Origin: Ferrimonas balearica DSM 9799
GTDB taxonomy: Bacteria > Pseudomonadota > Gammaproteobacteria > Enterobacterales > Shewanellaceae
Direction of reading: 5' to 3'
Length of the DNA: 64,000 nucleotides
Assembly (NCBI RefSeq): GCF_000148645.1
Contig: NC_014541.1
Location: forward strand, 558,001-622,000
Numbering within the stretch: the stretch's first letter is position 1; each line of letters opens with the position of its first letter. The translations under genes and the position numbers were made by a program. This document shows, piece after piece, positions 6,456 through 42,662 of this stretch. The notes under the pieces are model-generated. The model searched no databases and was not told the origin of the DNA. It worked only from the letters and a program-made list of their open reading frames with translations.

Positions 6456-7742
6456 TTGTTTGAGCGGTATGAAGCAGGCGAACGCGCAATTCTCGTCCAC
6501 ATCGACTTTTCAGCCGAAGGTGAGCGAGAAGACCTGGAGGAGCTCAAGCTACTGGTGAGCTCCGCCGGGGTAACGTCCTGTGGCATTGTCACAGGACGGC
6601 GTTCCAGTCCCCACCCCAAATATTTCTGTGGCACCGGAAAAGCGGAAGAGATTGCCGCTGTCGTCCAGGCCGAGCAGGCCGAAGTGGTGATTTTCAACCA
6701 CCCTCTCAGCCCCGCCCAAGAGCGTAACCTGGAACGGATCTGCCACTGTCGCGTGCTTGATCGCACCGGCCTCATCCTCGATATCTTTGCCCAGCGCGCC
6801 CGCACCCATGAGGGGAAACTGCAGGTTGAGCTGGCCCAGCTGCGTCACCTTTCCACCCGTTTGATCCGAGGCTGGACTCACCTTGAGCGCCAGAAAGGCG
6901 GTATCGGCCTGCGTGGACCCGGTGAAACCCAGCTGGAGACCGACCGTCGTCTGCTGCGGGAGCGGATCAAAGCGATCCTGCGCCGCCTTGACCGGGTGGC
7001 TCGTCAGCGTGAGCAGGGCCGTCGGGCCCGGCAGCGGCGTGAAGTGCCGACCGTATCCCTGGTGGGGTACACCAACGCCGGTAAGTCGACGCTGTTTAAC
7101 CGCATTACCGATTCCGGTGTGTACGCCGCGGATCAATTGTTCGCAACCCTGGACCCGACCCTGCGCCGCATCGAAGTGGCGGATGTCGGACCGGTGGTGC
7201 TGGCGGATACCGTGGGCTTTATCCGTCACCTGCCACACGATCTGGTGGCCGCGTTTAAGGGCACCCTGACCGAAACCCGGGAGGCGGACCTGCTGCTCCA
7301 CGTTATTGATGCGGCCGATGAGCGCGCCGTGGAGAACGTTGAAGCGGTGAATGAGGTGCTGGCGGAGATCGAAGCGGATGAAGTGCCCAGCCTGTTGGTC
7401 TACAACAAGCTGGACCTGCTGGAAGAGGCTGAGGCGCGCATTGATCGAAATGATGAAGGCGAACCGATCCGAGTCTGGCTTAGCGCCCGTAATGATGTGG
7501 GTATCGACTTGTTGTTCGAGGCGTTATCGGAACGGCTTGGCAACACCATGGTCGAACTCACCGTCAGCCTGCCGCCCAGTGAGGGAAGATGGCTGTCACG
7601 ATGCTATGAATTGAATGCGGTACTGGCGACAGAATACGACGACCAGGGCCACACTCAGGTTCAGTTAAGGCTGCCTGAGCGAGACTGGCAGCGTTTGTTG
7701 AAAGCGTCCGAGGGGAAGTTGTCTGACTTTATCCTCAAGTAA
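6456..7742 (+). CDS. hflX: GTPase HflX (ribosome rescue/splitting)
   Basis: Ribosome-associated GTPase that splits stalled 70S ribosomes under heat or antibiotic stress. It has an N-terminal HflX domain, a central coiled-coil linker, and a G domain with P-loop VGYTNAGKSTLFN near residue 205, DTVGF (G3) and NKLD (G4). The start is TTG at 6456: AGGAG lies nine bases upstream, and the following LFERYEAGER matches the family N-terminus, whereas no ATG fits. Length 428 aa is normal. It lies 23 bp downstream of hfq and upstream of hflKC. Confidence 0.95.
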   Translation: MFERYEAGERAILVHIDFSAEGEREDLEELKLLVSSAGVTSCGIVTGRRSSPHPKYFCGTGKAEEIAAVVQAEQAEVVIFNHPLSPAQERNLERICHCRVLDRTGLILDIFAQRARTHEGKLQVELAQLRHLSTRLIRGWTHLERQKGGIGLRGPGETQLETDRRLLRERIKAILRRLDRVARQREQGRRARQRREVPTVSLVGYTNAGKSTLFNRITDSGVYAADQLFATLDPTLRRIEVADVGPVVLADTVGFIRHLPHDLVAAFKGTLTETREADLLLHVIDAADERAVENVEAVNEVLAEIEADEVPSLLVYNKLDLLEEAEARIDRNDEGEPIRVWLSARNDVGIDLLFEALSERLGNTMVELTVSLPPSEGRWLSRCYELNAVLATEYDDQGHTQVQLRLPERDWQRLLKASEGKLSDFILK

Positions 7743-7795
7743 TTGGCTGATAAATTAGCTAGAGTTACCGAATCCCATCAAATGGAGCAGTGTTA

Positions 7796-8911
7796 ATGGC
7801 TTGGAATGAGCCTGGCAATCAAGGCAAAGACCCCTGGGGCAACCGAGGCGGTAAAGACCAGGGTCCGCCGGATCTGGATGAGGTCTTCCGCAAAATTTCC
7901 TCCCGCTTCGGCGGCGGCAACCAGTTCAGTGGTCTGGGTGCGGGGCTTGTCCTGCTCGGCCTGGTTCTGATCTGGGCCTTCTCTGGCTTCTACAAGATCG
8001 AGGAAGCGGAGCGTGGCGTGAAGCTGCGTTTCGGCCAATTCCACGAGCTGGTGGAGCCGGGCCTGAAGTGGAAACCCACCTTCGTTGACACCGTTTATCC
8101 GGTCAACATCCAGCGAGTTAACCGCCTGACTGCGTCCGGCATGATGCTCACTCAGGATGAGAACGTGGTACGCGTTGAGATGGAAGTGCAGTACCGCATC
8201 TCCGACCCGCGTAAGTACCTGTACTCCGTGACCAGCCCGGATCAGTCCCTGAGCGAAGCGATGGACAGCGCCCTGCGCTACGTGATCGGCCACACCACCA
8301 TGGATAACATCCTGACCGTGGGCCGTGACAAAGTCCGTCGTGATACCTGGGATGAACTGGAAGGCATCATCGAGTCCTACGACATGGGTCTGGTGGTGGT
8401 TGACGTGGCGTTCAAGGAAGCCCGCCCGCCGGAAGAGGTGAAACCCGCCTTCGATGACGCCATCGCGGCTCAGGAAGATGAAGAACGTTACGTTCAGGAA
8501 GCCACCGCATACTCCCGTCAGGTTGAACCGCAGGCTCGTGGTCAGGCTGAGCGTATGCTGCAGGAAGCCGACGCTTACAAGCGTCGCGTGGTTCTGGAAG
8601 CGGAAGGTGAAGTGGCACGCTTTGCCCAGTTGCTGCCTCAGTACGAAGCGGCGCCGGACGTGACCCGCGAGCGTCTCTACCTGGAGACGATGGAACAGGT
8701 GTTCAGCAAGACCACCAAGGTGATGGTGGATAACGACGGTGGCTCCATGTTCTACCTGCCGCTGGATAAGATCATTCAGAACCAATCTGGCTCTGCTGTG
8801 CAGCAGCCCAAGATGGCTGAACCGACTCCGTCCCAGACCCGTCCTGTCCGCAACGACTTTGATGAGAGTCGTAGCAGCCGCACCGACCGCACTCGTCAGG
8901 GGAGAAACTGA
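7796..8911 (+). CDS. hflK: FtsH protease modulator HflK
   Basis: SPFH-family inner-membrane protein that forms the cage-like HflKC complex around FtsH. The first about 45 residues are Gly/Pro/Asn-rich and cytoplasmic; one transmembrane helix follows (about residues 45-65, GLVLLGLVLIWAFSGFY), then a periplasmic SPFH/band 7 domain and a long coiled coil. The C-terminal tail is Gln/Ser/Thr/Arg-rich. The start at 7796 gives MAWNEPGNQG, the conserved HflK N-terminus, with GGAG eight bases upstream; a GTG six bases earlier is less likely. Two bases separate it from hflC. Confidence 0.95.
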   Translation: MAWNEPGNQGKDPWGNRGGKDQGPPDLDEVFRKISSRFGGGNQFSGLGAGLVLLGLVLIWAFSGFYKIEEAERGVKLRFGQFHELVEPGLKWKPTFVDTVYPVNIQRVNRLTASGMMLTQDENVVRVEMEVQYRISDPRKYLYSVTSPDQSLSEAMDSALRYVIGHTTMDNILTVGRDKVRRDTWDELEGIIESYDMGLVVVDVAFKEARPPEEVKPAFDDAIAAQEDEERYVQEATAYSRQVEPQARGQAERMLQEADAYKRRVVLEAEGEVARFAQLLPQYEAAPDVTRERLYLETMEQVFSKTTKVMVDNDGGSMFYLPLDKIIQNQSGSAVQQPKMAEPTPSQTRPVRNDFDESRSSRTDRTRQGRN

Positions 8912-38341: not shown

Positions 38342-39025
38342 ATGCGACTGAGCCCCTACTCCTCGACCCGTTTTGCCCCGTTGCTTGAGCAACACCACGA
38401 CGCTTTTACCGCCGCGCTGTCCGAGTGCCGGGTGGGGGCCGCCCAATTCCAGGCGGACGACCTGCTGTTGACCCAGGGACAGGCGGTGGACCGGCTCTAC
38501 ATCGTGCCTACCGGCAAACTTGCCTTTCACATCACTGCCATCAATGGCCGCCGTTTTCAGCTGGGCGAGGTGCAGTGCGAGCACCACATCATTGGTGAGA
38601 TGGAGTTCTTCACCAACACCCCCTGCCAGTGGAGTGTGATGGCGATGGAGCCGCTCCAAGCGGAAGTGCTGTGCGTTCAGCGCCTGCAGCAGCAACTGAC
38701 CGCCAATCCCATTCTGTCGCTGTTCTTCGCCTCGGCCTTGGCGTTCGATTACCAGGAGTCGCTGGCCATCTCTACCCACCGCCTGCTGCACCCCATCGCC
38801 TACAACATCGCCTTTGACCTGTGGCAGCGTCGCCACAGCAAGATGACTTTGGACGCCTTCAATCGCGTGGAGCAGGAAGCGGAGCGCTTCGGCACCTCCA
38901 GCCGGGTGTACCGCCGGGCGGTGAAATCGCTGATAGAGCAGGGCCTGGTCGAGAAACGCGGGCACAGCATTGAGGTGGTGGACTGGCCCAAGCTGGAGCG
39001 GTTTATTGCGCTGACGGTGGAGTAG
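38342..39025 (+). CDS. Crp/Fnr-family regulator, YeiL-like
   Basis: N-terminal cNMP-binding-type beta-roll (residues about 15-115) with LLLTQGQAVDRLYIVPTG, a long helix, and a C-terminal winged helix with SSRVYRRAVKSLIEQGLVEKRG in place of the usual recognition region. The look and setting are like E. coli YeiL, which lies next to nucleoside transport/hydrolysis genes. Two start codons are possible: 38342 (227 aa) or 38303 (240 aa); neither has a strong Shine-Dalgarno. It probably regulates nupC-udp, by inference. Confidence 0.75.
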   Translation: MRLSPYSSTRFAPLLEQHHDAFTAALSECRVGAAQFQADDLLLTQGQAVDRLYIVPTGKLAFHITAINGRRFQLGEVQCEHHIIGEMEFFTNTPCQWSVMAMEPLQAEVLCVQRLQQQLTANPILSLFFASALAFDYQESLAISTHRLLHPIAYNIAFDLWQRRHSKMTLDAFNRVEQEAERFGTSSRVYRRAVKSLIEQGLVEKRGHSIEVVDWPKLERFIALTVE

Positions 39026-39053
39026 GGCAGTAAAGCCGCTGTTCAAACATCAC

Positions 39054-39088
39054 AACGCCCCGGGCTTTTCTGGCCCGGGGCGTTTTTT
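39054..39088. terminator. Bidirectional terminator before the WYL cassette end
   Basis: Twelve-bp stem AACGCCCCGGGC / GCCCGGGGCGTT with a seven-base loop and TTTTTT. Serves the Crp-like gene and the convergent 468-aa gene. Confidence 0.9.
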
Positions 39089-40493
39089 AGTCTGCAGCGG
39101 CCCGTTCGGTATCTTGCTGCCCCAGATCGGCCTGGTTCAGTACTTCAAGAATATGCTGGTGCACGGCAACACGGCGTTTCTCCTCGACCGTCATCCAGTA
39201 GATCAGGTCACGTACCGCGTTATTGGCAAACAGGAACAGCGCCATATAGTTGATGCGGTAGTCCCCATAGGCCGCCTTGGCCAGGGATACGGCAGCCACC
39301 ACGCCGTAGGCGATGGCGCACATACGGGTGTACACCACCTCGTTGATGCCGGTCAGCTTCTTCCATACCCACAGCATGATTTTGGGGATGGCGATGGCCA
39401 GCCCCTGGCTCATCCAGGCGCGGAAGTCATAGCCCTCCAGGTAGGCTTCCCGGGCCAGGTCAGCGGCGCCGGTTTTGATGCCAACCGGATTCATCAGCAT
39501 CGAGTAGCCGGGGAAGCCCAGGCCAGCGCCGCCTCCGGCGGTGGTGTTGCTGCCGTTGATGTCCGAAAGGATGTGGCAAAAGAACGTCATCAGCGCGGTC
39601 AGGATGTTCTCGACGCTGTATCCGCCCTGCATCGCCCGTCCCGGATTGGCCACGGTGACCATCTGCTGCAGCTCCGGCGAGTAGAGGGTGCAGGTGCCCT
39701 GGATCTGGTCGCGGATGGCGTGCACCGCGCCGAGCAGGTCATGGGCCGGACTGTCGAAGTGGTGGCCTTTGCAGTTGAGGTTGCTGAAGGCACCCTGTTC
39801 ATACAGTTCCCGGTTATGGGCGAAGGCTTTTTTGTATTCTCCCAGCTGGTTTTGCAGGTCTTCTCCCTGCAGCGACGACAGCAGCTTCTTGTCGGAACCG
39901 GTCAGGTCCTGCCAGTCCATCTTAATGTGACCGCTGTTGGCGGCGTCGTAACTGACATGGTGCTGGGACTCCAGTGACTGGATGCCCGATTTGTCGAGCC
40001 CCGCCTGCTCCATGGCGCTGCCGATCTGAACTTTACCCACAAAGAGTTCAACCAGACCGCCCAGCAACCCCGCAAAGCTGGCCACCCACAAGTCGGCGTC
40101 ACTCATGCGCAGCGTGTTGTCCTCGCGGATGCCGATGATGGTTTGCTGGCAGGCCAGCAGATGCTCCGGCGTGGTCAGGTCAAACAGGGTGGCGGGCGGC
40201 GCTTCATCGATCAGTTCGGTGATCGACTTGCGCCGGATGGTGATGGTGGACTCGCAGGGCGCTTCCCCCAGTGCAGCCAGCGCCGCAGCGGTGGCACTTC
40301 GGTCTATGGTGCTGCCCAGGGCATCGCGGCTCAGGATGGAGCGGGTGGCGATGTCACCCTCCTCCAACCCCAACGTGGCCAGTGCGGCGTGGGTGGCACT
40401 ACGATCCGTCGGCGCAAACTCCGATTGTTCGACCCGGCGCTGCAGGTCAACCTGGGCGTTCAGCAGCCCCTGCCAAGTGACGTTTTTAGTCAT
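39087..40493 (-). CDS. Unrecognised 468-aa multi-TM protein of the WYL cassette
   Basis: Not recognised. N-terminus has an internal duplication, DRSATHAALATLG (30-42) and DRSATAAALAALG (64-76). One possible membrane segment lies at about 134-152; three or four more at about 295-308, 362-378, 389-406 and 413-430. Clustered His/Asp: GHHFDSPAHDLLGAVH (His244, His245, His251, Asp252, His258) and FCHILSDINGS (His307, Asp311), a spacing that could form a metal site in a helical bundle. Short and Gly-rich NTTAGGGAGLGF follows. GAAGAG precedes the ATG. Last of three genes downstream of a WYL regulator beside a tRNA; a membrane-acting effector is possible but speculative. Confidence 0.7.
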   Translation of the reverse strand: MTKNVTWQGLLNAQVDLQRRVEQSEFAPTDRSATHAALATLGLEEGDIATRSILSRDALGSTIDRSATAAALAALGEAPCESTITIRRKSITELIDEAPPATLFDLTTPEHLLACQQTIIGIREDNTLRMSDADLWVASFAGLLGGLVELFVGKVQIGSAMEQAGLDKSGIQSLESQHHVSYDAANSGHIKMDWQDLTGSDKKLLSSLQGEDLQNQLGEYKKAFAHNRELYEQGAFSNLNCKGHHFDSPAHDLLGAVHAIRDQIQGTCTLYSPELQQMVTVANPGRAMQGGYSVENILTALMTFFCHILSDINGSNTTAGGGAGLGFPGYSMLMNPVGIKTGAADLAREAYLEGYDFRAWMSQGLAIAIPKIMLWVWKKLTGINEVVYTRMCAIAYGVVAAVSLAKAAYGDYRINYMALFLFANNAVRDLIYWMTVEEKRRVAVHQHILEVLNQADLGQQDTERAAAD

Positions 40494-40515
40494 TGTCTGC
40501 TCTTCTTCGGGGCGG

Positions 40516-41178
40516 TCAGGAACGGGTTTCCGCTTCCAGTTGCTGAATGCGGTCGGTCAGTTTGCGGATCACCACGGCGTCGAATTCGCTGTTGCGCAGC
40601 AGGAGTTCGCGTTCCTGGTAGAGGTGTTGCAGCTCGACCAGTTTCTCGGCCATCGCCAGTTTGACGATCTCGGTGCGGATCACATCGTTGTTTTTAAAGT
40701 CGTCCAGATGCCAGGAGAGCCAGCCGGCGGCCAGCAAGGGTTTCAGCTTGGCCGGGACATCGGCCTCGTCAATCTGGCGGATGGCATCGGGGAGCTCACT
40801 CAGGATGCAGACACCGATGGCCAGGTAGACCTGGAAGGTCAGCATCAACAGCGGGGAATCCTGGGCTTCGCGGGCACTGGAGCCGTATTTGATTTTGCCC
40901 AGTTCCGCTTCGAGATAGGCGCGTGGTGTCTTGCCGTAGGTGGCCAGGTCCAGTGTGCTGTGCAGGTAGCAGTATTCGTACAGCTCACGCACCTCCTCGC
41001 GACGGTACTCCTGATGCAGGCAGGCGGTCAGGTCCGATTCACGGCCGATAAGGCGTCGGTTTTTGAGCATGGCGCAGGCAAAAAACGCCGCCCAGGTGTT
41101 GCCTTCATACTGACCACGGATCAGTTCGTTAGCGAGATTGTCTTTCTTAATGTCGAACAGCAGGTTCAGGTCGCTCAT
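40516..41178 (-). CDS. Unrecognised 220-aa protein of the WYL cassette
   Basis: Not recognised. All-helical look, no signal peptide. N-terminal part FDIKKDNLANELIRGQYEG, a possible short hydrophobic stretch around residues 109-125 (LLMLTFQVYLAIGVCIL), and a C-terminal heptad-rich region (about 170-218) likely to coil. The Cys/Tyr-rich EYCYLHSTLD patch is notable. It lies 39 bp after the WYL regulator and 22 bp before the 468-aa gene. A partner protein for that gene is the simplest reading. Confidence 0.65.
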   Translation of the reverse strand: MSDLNLLFDIKKDNLANELIRGQYEGNTWAAFFACAMLKNRRLIGRESDLTACLHQEYRREEVRELYEYCYLHSTLDLATYGKTPRAYLEAELGKIKYGSSAREAQDSPLLMLTFQVYLAIGVCILSELPDAIRQIDEADVPAKLKPLLAAGWLSWHLDDFKNNDVIRTEIVKLAMAEKLVELQHLYQERELLLRNSEFDAVVIRKLTDRIQQLEAETRS

Positions 41179-41217
41179 GATTCAGCGCTTACTCTTGTTA
41201 TGTTGTGCCACTGGGGA

Positions 41218-42096
41218 TCACCGGCTCAGGTAACGGGTCAAATCGGCCCGTACCGCAGCATCAATCGAGGGCGGGTCGAGCACCTCCATCTCCGGTGCCC
41301 AATACTTGATGAGAGGGATGATCTGGCGGGGGTGGTGGACCTCGCTGCGCAGGATCATCCCGCCGTCGGGTAACGTTTCAATCGTTTCCTGGTAGGGCAG
41401 CAGTGACCGCCGTTGGAAGTAACTGGCCACCTCGGCGGACACTTTGACGGTGACGCCGAGACGTTCGGAGCCGAAGAAGATGCCATCCGCCTCTTCAATG
41501 GCGCGCTGGATGGCCGGGTCAGGCTCAAAGGTATCCGGCAGAGACAGTTGATTGCGGATGGCGCTGAGCTGGAAGGCTTTCAGCGCAGCCCCATCGACCG
41601 CGGCCAGATACCAAATCCCCTTGTTATTGACCAGCCGGTAAGGCGCCAGTCGCGGATAGACCTTGCCTTTATAGTGCAGGCTGACGCAGTGGTGGGCGTT
41701 GATGGCCCGGGTCAGCTTGTCCAAAGATTGGCGCAGGCCTGGATTGTCTTCGTAGTGGTAGCCCTTGATCAGGTAGGGGCTGGCTAAGGTGTTGCTCAGG
41801 ATATTGGCGATAAAGCCCGCATCCAGGCTGGGAAACAGTTGGCTCACCCCTACCAGGCTGGAGAAGTTGCGGATGTCCTGATTGGACAGTTTTCCCATGG
41901 CCGCAGCGGCGAGGTGGAAACGGTCACCCGACTTGTCGATTGGGAGAAACGCCAGCCGGGCATTGATGTCCCGCTGCAGGGTGCGCTTGTTGACCCCGTA
42001 TTGTTCAGCCAGGGCGCTCATGCTCAGGGATTCCCCCGAGTTCAGGCGCACCAGAATATCGGCGAGGCGATCCGCCAATGTGGTTTTATTGCTCAT
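41218..42096 (-). CDS. WYL-domain HTH transcriptional regulator
   Basis: N-terminal winged helix with SMSALAEQYGVNKRTLQRDI (about 26-45), then a WYL domain with YHYEDNPG, YKGKVYPRLAPYRLV and GIWYLAAVDG, and a C-terminal WCX-like extension. Layout is like BrxR/CapW regulators, which control phage-defence operons and often repress them. An upstream TTG (42129) is possible, but ATG 42096 is preferred. A perfect inverted repeat (42142-42164) lies 46-68 bp upstream, consistent with autoregulation. 292 aa. Confidence 0.85.
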   Translation of the reverse strand: MSNKTTLADRLADILVRLNSGESLSMSALAEQYGVNKRTLQRDINARLAFLPIDKSGDRFHLAAAAMGKLSNQDIRNFSSLVGVSQLFPSLDAGFIANILSNTLASPYLIKGYHYEDNPGLRQSLDKLTRAINAHHCVSLHYKGKVYPRLAPYRLVNNKGIWYLAAVDGAALKAFQLSAIRNQLSLPDTFEPDPAIQRAIEEADGIFFGSERLGVTVKVSAEVASYFQRRSLLPYQETIETLPDGGMILRSEVHHPRQIIPLIKYWAPEMEVLDPPSIDAAVRADLTRYLSR

Positions 42097-42141
42097 GCTA
42101 TCCAGCACTGTGTGGTGATGTTCCGGCAACCTTACCGAATG

Positions 42142-42164
42142 AGGGTGACAGCCGGTGTCACCCT
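42142..42164. promoter_or_regulatory. Perfect 9-bp inverted repeat, candidate WYL-regulator operator
   Basis: AGGGTGACA-GCCGG-TGTCACCCT. A TTGTAC at its upstream edge on the minus strand may be a -35, so the repeat would overlap the promoter. Confidence 0.55.
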
Positions 42165-42523
42165 GTACAAAACGGGATGGGCGTTAACTCATTGTTTAGA
42201 GGGTTTGTTTCCCGGAGCGGATAGATAGCAAATCGCGGTGTTCAATTCCGTCGGATAGCGCCAGCTTCCTGAATATTGTTTGCCTTTTTCGGGCTGTGGG
42301 GGATCTGGAGGGCGGGAAGGCGTCGGTGTTTGTCCTGATTGGCCGATGGAACCAGCCACTTGGTTATTGCGGTTTCCGTCTTTGTTTCAGGCTTCGAAGC
42401 CAACCAGACAATCGTTTCGCCCAGCGACGCCAGAATGTGGGGGGAGGGCAAGCGGCGCTAAGCGTTGTGTCGCGACGCGAAGTTACACAGCATCAAGAAG
42501 CTGACAGCACGAATGGTGCATAC
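42165..42523. other. 359-bp stretch without a recognised gene
   Basis: Lies between the WYL-regulator operator and the tRNA-Leu terminator. A minus-strand open frame of 69 codons (42242-42451) exists but shows no Shine-Dalgarno or family resemblance. No tRNA-end duplicate, integrase or attachment repeat was recognised. Confidence 0.5.
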
Positions 42524-42555
42524 GAAAAAGCCCCAGTCTTTCGACTGGGGCTTTC
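42524..42555 (-). terminator. Terminator downstream of tRNA-Leu
   Basis: On the minus strand: stem AAAGCCCCAGTC / GACTGGGGCTTT, loop GAAA, then TTTTT. Confidence 0.88.
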
Positions 42556-42563
42556 TCTGTATC

Positions 42564-42650
42564 TGGTACCGGGAGGGGGACTTGAACCCCCAAGGTGTCA
42601 CCACCGGCGGATTTTGAATCCGCTGCGTCTACCAATTCCGCCATCCCGGC
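42564..42650 (-). tRNA. tRNA-Leu (anticodon CAA)
   Basis: On the minus strand the acceptor GCCGGGA pairs with TCCCGGT; a long leucine-type variable arm is present; the anticodon loop TTCAAAA gives CAA; the T-loop GGTTCAAGTCC and an encoded 3' CCA close it. Eighty-seven bases. Reads UUG codons. Confidence 0.96.
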
Positions 42651-42662
42651 TTAGGAGTGGGC

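Follow-up and report, generated by a model that had tools for sequence, protein, structure and literature searches.

Among the described systems, the closest to the locus reported here is Bunzi, a pair of the genes bnzA and bnzB, which a table in one review lists as a defense system with a TerB-type domain (PMC10952713) and which a passage of a 2026 review places among defense systems of unknown mechanism (PMC12926258). Among the literature matches listed, with subscription journals mostly outside the coverage, no title dealt with the mechanism of BnzB or with a WYL-linked BnzB. Here we analyze a stretch of 64,000 nucleotides from Ferrimonas balearica DSM 9799 (NC_014541.1, positions 558,001 to 622,000; further called the window, whose own numbering is used throughout). 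It contains a compact operon of three open reading frames (ORFs) on the minus strand, which encodes, in this order, a WYL-domain regulator, a protein of 220 amino acids (aa) and a 468-aa homolog of BnzB. We read this cassette, with modest confidence, as a horizontally acquired, WYL-controlled candidate anti-phage module, which is built on a very diverged BnzB and has a new partner.

The 468-aa protein (39087-40493, minus strand) is the putative effector or enzyme core of the cassette. The PADLOC model of BnzB (PDLC03834) matches it with E 5.9e-29 at residues 123-399, covering model positions 152-436 of 504; Pfam and NCBIfam gave nothing above cut-off. The identity to BnzB relatives is 21-27%, varying by alignment. 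A preliminary description of this DNA, made without database searches, spoke of two unrecognised proteins and of a pair matching no known defense system. The profile search upholds this for the 220-aa protein, which matches no family, and for the pair as such, but not for the 468-aa protein.

BnzB-like loci were collected by a motif scan of genome contigs, which yielded 107 stretches, 52 of them kept on a tblastn match to the 468-aa protein of the window. Since the motifs were derived from the window protein and three Bunzi proteins and cover positions 242-250 and 363-371, this sample leans to Bunzi-like members and to these positions. In 51 of the 52 loci the called BnzB-like ORF was matched by phmmer with the window protein (E <= 2.2e-6), the ORF of the remaining locus (L051) being mis-called. 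The alignment (A9) has 41 rows, of which 38 come from the 52 loci and three are the window, L036 and L037. It omits five loci with a mis-called or cut ORF (L046, L051, L053, L059, L089) and nine judged near-duplicate or dispensable (L038, L054, L068, L070, L072, L077, L082, L086, L087).

Sixteen positions are invariant in all 41 rows (D134, G142, L174, H244, H251, G255, H307, S310, D311, G322, G324, P328, G354, D356, R358 and N415), and the window protein keeps every one of them. Fifteen lie outside the collecting motifs, and H244 lies inside one. The pattern of the BnzB superfamily, H-x6-H, H-x2-S-D, G-x-G and G-[YF]-D-x-R, is likewise found in the window protein (41/41 rows). The cluster of His and Asp residues singled out in the preliminary description survives in part: H244, H251, H307 and D311 are present in 41 of 41 rows and H245 in 39, but D252 in 21 and H258 in one, whereas S310, D356 and R358, absent from that list, occur in all rows. 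On account of this conservation an enzyme site comes to mind, possibly a catalytic or metal site around the invariant His, Asp and Arg residues. The indications that the protein resides in the membrane, as proposed before, are weak: the mean hydropathy is above 1.6 in two segments of 19 residues (residues 135-153, 1.79; residues 386-404, 1.68), the former having a counterpart of at least 1.80 in seven of seven relatives checked.

A genome scan with the 468-aa protein as the lone query gave no match, and only the genome itself matched in the class sample (1/369). With the BnzB family as the query, four of 398 genomes in the phylum sample matched, including F. balearica itself and two weak partial matches; in the order sample eight of 394 genomes matched BnzB, the own genome included. 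Five further genomes of the 152 in the family harbor BnzB homologs with a long upstream gene, and in the two of these loci that were scanned with PADLOC the pair is BnzA and BnzB. The protein matches one phage record. A viral scan with it as the single query found no relative, such scans reaching close relatives only, and viral scans with alignments as queries found two distant BnzB-like loci, and none with alignment A7. Among plasmids, tblastn of the 468-aa protein matches 461 of 72,556 records, with about 25% identity among the matches listed; two of these records were inspected.

BnzB homologs usually have a glycine-zipper protein (BnzA, M09A or a short form) encoded next to them. By profile, the partner is BnzA-like in 25 of the 52 loci, M09A-like in 23 and neither in four; of the latter, L059 and L066 are cut by a contig end, L051 has the mis-called frame, and L080 has another glycine/alanine-rich partner. 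As the BnzA and M09A profiles were each built from five of the loci, ten of the 48 partner matches hold by construction. In 44 of these 48 loci, the partner gene and the BnzB-like gene overlap or are at most 60 bp apart; the partner is more distant in L038, L046, L060 and L073, partly through split or mis-called ORFs. In seven further loci, taken from the order sample, the next upstream gene matches the BnzA profile in six cases, and the seventh locus is cut by a contig end. Two of these six genes encode short glycine-zipper proteins of 161 aa (L129) and 202 aa (L130).

In a tree of 26 chosen rows, a single branch sets off each of the groups with BnzA, M09A and short partners (support 82/91, 89/100 and 99/96, respectively). 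A second tree of 53 rows includes 47 of the 52 loci; its label for Bunzi was set by the length of the upstream gene, so that L061 and L081 are mislabelled in it, partners having been assigned by profile later. BnzB clades follow the partner type, and the window protein seems to form a long-branch lineage of its own, whose exact place is unsure. The M09A-type BnzB loci are a large sister group of Bunzi. They include L047, L061-L063, L067-L069, L073-L079 and L081-L089, are mostly from Bacillota and have the M09A-like partner downstream; in L077, the one such locus scanned, PADLOC confirms M09A.

Several other arrangements were seen in these loci. Plasmid and viral records (L007, L008, L036) encode in series a trypsin-like protease, then a glycine-zipper protein of 165 aa and a BnzB-like protein, with an IS3 transposase in between in L007; in the plasmid L008 this module comes after terD/TerD-family genes (tellurite resistance, ter). 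The L130 module (6525-8497, reverse strand), consisting of the glycine-zipper protein of 202 aa and a BnzB-like protein of 454 aa, adjoins a gene whose product has the GemA domain of phage Mu, and a TniB/AAA-type ATPase is encoded nearby; it is possibly borne by a Mu-like prophage. In two Pseudomonas loci (L053, L054) the Bunzi pair has another BnzA-like gene downstream of it, with a weaker match (E 7e-20 and 6e-19).

The partner in the window matches none of these. The 220-aa protein (40516-41178, minus strand) is predicted to be helical, at low confidence, and has a single, central hydrophobic stretch (residues 108-126); its structure model is unusable (predicted local distance difference test, pLDDT, 47). 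It matches no family in Pfam and PADLOC (both E <= 1), NCBIfam or PHROGs, and has no homolog in plasmids, phages or the viral scan, where as a single query it would reach close relatives only. It was found in its own genome alone among 152 family genomes and 394 order genomes, and among the 732 ORFs of the 52 loci nothing matched it at E <= 0.5. No TerB domain was seen in it in the Pfam search at E <= 1; a true BnzA itself has TerB only at E 0.013, below cut-off, which makes this a weak criterion. The protein has no glycine-zipper motif and fails to match the BnzA and M09A profiles, and no BnzA was found in the whole genome at E <= 1. Because the partner matches no BnzA and the genome has none, the cassette falls outside the definition of Bunzi; it would be Bunzi-like and presumably act on the same effector, BnzB.

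By hhalign, the 220-aa protein scored 0.0-1.2% against the BnzA, M09A and short-partner sets (BnzA 0.1%, short partner 1.2%). In control comparisons the short partner scored 97.2% against BnzA and 19.4% against M09A, and M09A scored 7.9% against BnzA. The M09A set, 23 rows picked by length alone and including a spurious ORF from L046, makes a noisy comparison. A diverged BnzA or M09A is without support, the scores being near zero; the controls involving the M09A set (19.4% and 7.9%) were themselves weak. A somewhat doubtful possibility, compatible with the reading we favor and not an exclusive alternative to it, is that the 220-aa protein goes back to a glycine-zipper partner, from which it would have diverged to an extreme degree, and that the cassette is another short-partner BnzB module. 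The gene order (partner, then BnzB) is the same, the sizes are 161 (L129), 165 (L036) and 202 aa (L130) vs 220 aa, the protein has its central hydrophobic stretch, and the 53-row tree joins the window BnzB to three short-partner rows with support of 95/96, with the long branches flagged. A low hhalign score is also compatible with distant kinship, as likely kin themselves scored 19.4% and 7.9%. However, the glycine-zipper motif is missing, the short partner was recognized as BnzA-like by the same method that returned at most 1.2% for the 220-aa protein, and no supported set of the 26-row tree contains the window.

The regulator (41218-42096, minus strand) has 292 aa counted from the ATG; an alternative start, TTG at 42129 (41218-42129), would give 303 aa, 11 more. 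Its assignment in the preliminary description as a WYL-domain protein is confirmed by Pfam, with WCX (3.9e-12) and WYL (5.4e-8) above cut-off; HTH_11, a helix-turn-helix (HTH) family, is just under it (24.7 vs 25 bits). The narrower label given there, BrxR/CapW-like, gained no support from the sequence, as phmmer against PDB yielded no chain at E <= 10. In the profile search the nearest chains were a DeoR-family regulator (8tp8, which we take to be DriD), other WYL proteins and PafBC. PafBC and DriD are described in the literature as binding single-stranded DNA and as linked to DNA damage.

Upstream of the regulator, 45 bp ahead of its ATG, lies a perfect 9-5-9 inverted repeat (42142-42164), a likely operator, the end of which coincides with the end coordinate (42164) of the cassette in the preliminary description. 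Nowhere else in the 4.28-Mb genome does this palindrome recur exactly, and four more sites resemble it with three mismatches; with up to three mismatches allowed, the pattern occurs at one place in the window vs 0.05 expected.

Relatives of the window WYL protein are also found near Bunzi genes: 86 bp after bnzB in L058 (40.6% identity over 291 positions), 2 bp after bnzB on the opposite strand in L070 (29.5%), and upstream of bnzA, with intervening genes, in L042 (34.7%). These three of the 52 loci are all from Campylobacterota, which contribute six loci to the set; the search used the window WYL protein as the phmmer query (E <= 1e-3) and would miss other WYL families. Outside this search, a WYL/WCX gene was noticed by eye, and then confirmed, two genes upstream of the M09A-type pair in L081. 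As WYL genes are common near defense genes generally, according to a passage in PMC9122601, and the count has no background rate for this family to be set against, the co-location in three of 52 loci is moderate evidence. Examples of a defense context, picked for defense-like neighbors and giving no rate, come from Bunzi next to type I restriction genes in L044 and near a TmtA-like gene in L014. In the third example, L039 (5908-13981), bnzA and bnzB are followed directly by pglZ and brxL, as though inside a BREX operon.

The same features allow for a toxin-antitoxin-like or stress module that has no primary anti-phage role, in which the BnzB-like protein would be a toxin acting on membranes and the 220-aa protein would inhibit it, both being held low by the WYL repressor until DNA damage occurs. 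We consider this improbable, though it has points in its favor: a two-gene core beneath a single regulator, the best profile matches of that regulator to a DeoR-family/WYL protein and PafBC, the literature that links both DriD and PafBC with DNA damage and with single-stranded DNA, and the ter genes adjoining the short-partner module on the L008 plasmid. Against it, relatives adjoin defense genes at the examples read, and BnzB clades retain their own partner types, as expected of an effector complex.

The cassette occupies a variable genomic site. The 468-aa and the 220-aa proteins were each found in one of 14 congeneric genomes, namely their own. In the closest relative read, G011 (locus L034), the flanks of the cassette are 82% and 87% identical and the content of the slot is different. 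The insert in the slot of G011 (L034:4838-8434) includes a lipoprotein-like gene of 878 aa, and each end of the insert bears a hairpin resembling the tRNA-Leu terminator. The tRNA-Leu surroundings of seven congeneric genomes (L034, L110-L115) contain the 468-aa protein in none, and the CRP-like flank gene occurs within the tRNA-Leu stretch only in G011. The slot thus differs among congeners and the cassette is found in one of 14, so the site is variable and the cassette is not core. A housekeeping gene is ruled out by the absence of each of the two proteins from the 13 other congeneric genomes; no match to a housekeeping family came up, and conservation in all relatives, which the preliminary description had named as evidence against its proposal, was not observed. 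Among E. coli genomes, the best 20 of 5372 match at the tRNA only, and a query coverage of 80% is reached by none of the genomes.

The three ORFs lie at the place given in the preliminary description, and the tRNA reported beside them was found as well: tRNA-Leu(caa) (42564-42650, minus strand) flanks the variable slot about 400 bp off, with its 3' end toward the cassette. Its proposed role as an island integration site found no backing, as none of the three cassette genes matched an integrase (Pfam, PADLOC, NCBIfam) and no direct repeat of at least 10 bases is shared by the stretches 39001-39120 and 42481-42660. On the other side, the 3' boundary of the cassette is marked by a GC-rich terminator hairpin (39054-39084), beyond which lies the CRP-like gene. 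Within the operon, the spacers are 39 bp between the WYL gene and the 220-aa gene and 22 bp between the latter and the 468-aa gene. At codon position 3 the cassette frames have a GC content of 0.76-0.80, which is close to that of three neighboring genes (0.81-0.84); two antisense ORFs compared have lower values, 0.61 and 0.68.

The defense reading put forward in the preliminary description is therefore retained in part. It gains from the BnzB homology, the defense neighbors of relatives, the WYL genes near Bunzi and the presence in one of 14 genomes, but the ten neighboring genes in the window include no PADLOC family at E <= 1e-5 (the remaining genome was not scanned for defense systems). The anti-phage protection by Bunzi itself was reportedly described by Millman et al. 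in 2022, and reviews list Bunzi as a defense system. Other observations also weigh against the defense reading. The pair of the 220-aa protein and a BnzB-like protein is a singleton. The end branch of the window BnzB is 4.6 in the 26-row tree, where the protein stands apart in no supported group, and 6.28 changes per site, with a long-branch warning, in the 53-row tree. Positions kept in 37-40 of the 41 rows are changed in the window protein (N to G243, K to D247, W to F304, P to G326, P to A366, E to K371), and so its activity may be altered, relaxed or decayed. The predicted structure of the 468-aa protein (pLDDT 70) gave no fold match. Finally, perfect 9-bp inverted repeats are not rare, having 65 overlapping placements in the 64-kb window, mostly in nested terminator-like hairpins, so that the main argument for the palindrome is its place before the regulator.

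A decaying Bunzi remnant, that is, a BnzB drifting without BnzA next to an unrelated 220-aa ORF, would agree with the very long branch, the replaced near-invariant positions and the lack of BnzA in the genome (E <= 1), but is quite unlikely given three intact frames with normal codon-position GC in a tight operon, purine-rich stretches (judged by eye) ahead of two of the genes, and the retention in the window protein of all positions that do not vary among the other 40 rows.

For the candidate anti-phage module, a possible mode of action can be outlined. A dimer of the WYL protein would bind the palindrome (42142-42164) and repress the operon. An infection signal read by the WYL domain may lift the repression, the precedent being single-stranded DNA in DriD and PafBC. 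The 220-aa protein, via its hydrophobic stretch, may replace the glycine-zipper partner as a sensor or a membrane anchor. BnzB, which is probably membrane-associated, would then become active at the site around H244, H251, H307, D311, D356 and R358 and could damage the phage or the cell that it infects (abortive infection).

More tentatively, the cassette may represent a fourth class of BnzB systems, without a glycine zipper, in which an unrelated small protein drives BnzB under the control of a WYL repressor that senses DNA damage or single-stranded DNA. If so, BnzB would be the shared effector of at least four defense systems and an enzyme of an as yet unsolved fold. Across the superfamily, with BnzA, M09A, short glycine-zipper partners and the window form, BnzB looks like the constant element, and its conserved residues offer themselves for mutagenesis; judging by the window form, the partner may be exchangeable, which makes the question of whether BnzB is the effector directly testable.

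The comparison with known systems can be made at the level of both the regulator and the core. BrxR and CapW have the HTH-WYL-WCX layout that is seen in the window regulator, and in the window, too, a palindrome precedes the operon. The BrxR operator is described as an imperfect 11-bp inverted repeat with a 5-bp spacer (R-BOX; PMC9122601) and the CapW operators as imperfect palindromes of 19-24 bp (PMC9122588). The putative operator in the window, 23 bp long, has a 5-bp spacer as in the R-BOX and a length like that of the CapW operators; for the WYL protein itself, the PDB searches gave no sequence match to either, other WYL proteins and PafBC being closer by profile.

With the short glycine-zipper modules (L007, L008, L036, L129, L130) the cassette shares a small upstream partner (161-202 aa in those modules) and a BnzB-like protein (about 454-462 aa where complete). 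Their partner, however, is BnzA-like in its hydrophobic part, a trypsin-like gene lies upstream in L007, L008 and L036, and no relative of the window WYL protein was matched in L129 or L130. PDC-M09, a PADLOC candidate system with M09A beside a BnzB-like protein, mostly in Bacillota, resembles the cassette in having a BnzB-like core with a dedicated partner; that partner is encoded downstream, has about 370 aa and, in the one read (L077), a glycine-rich hydrophobic stretch, and the comparisons gave no sign that the 220-aa protein is related to it. Unlike Bunzi, the cassette has no BnzA and no TerB or glycine-zipper partner that we could find, and it has a WYL regulator of its own; like Bunzi, it encodes a BnzB homolog, keeps the order of partner and BnzB, and occupies a variable chromosomal site.

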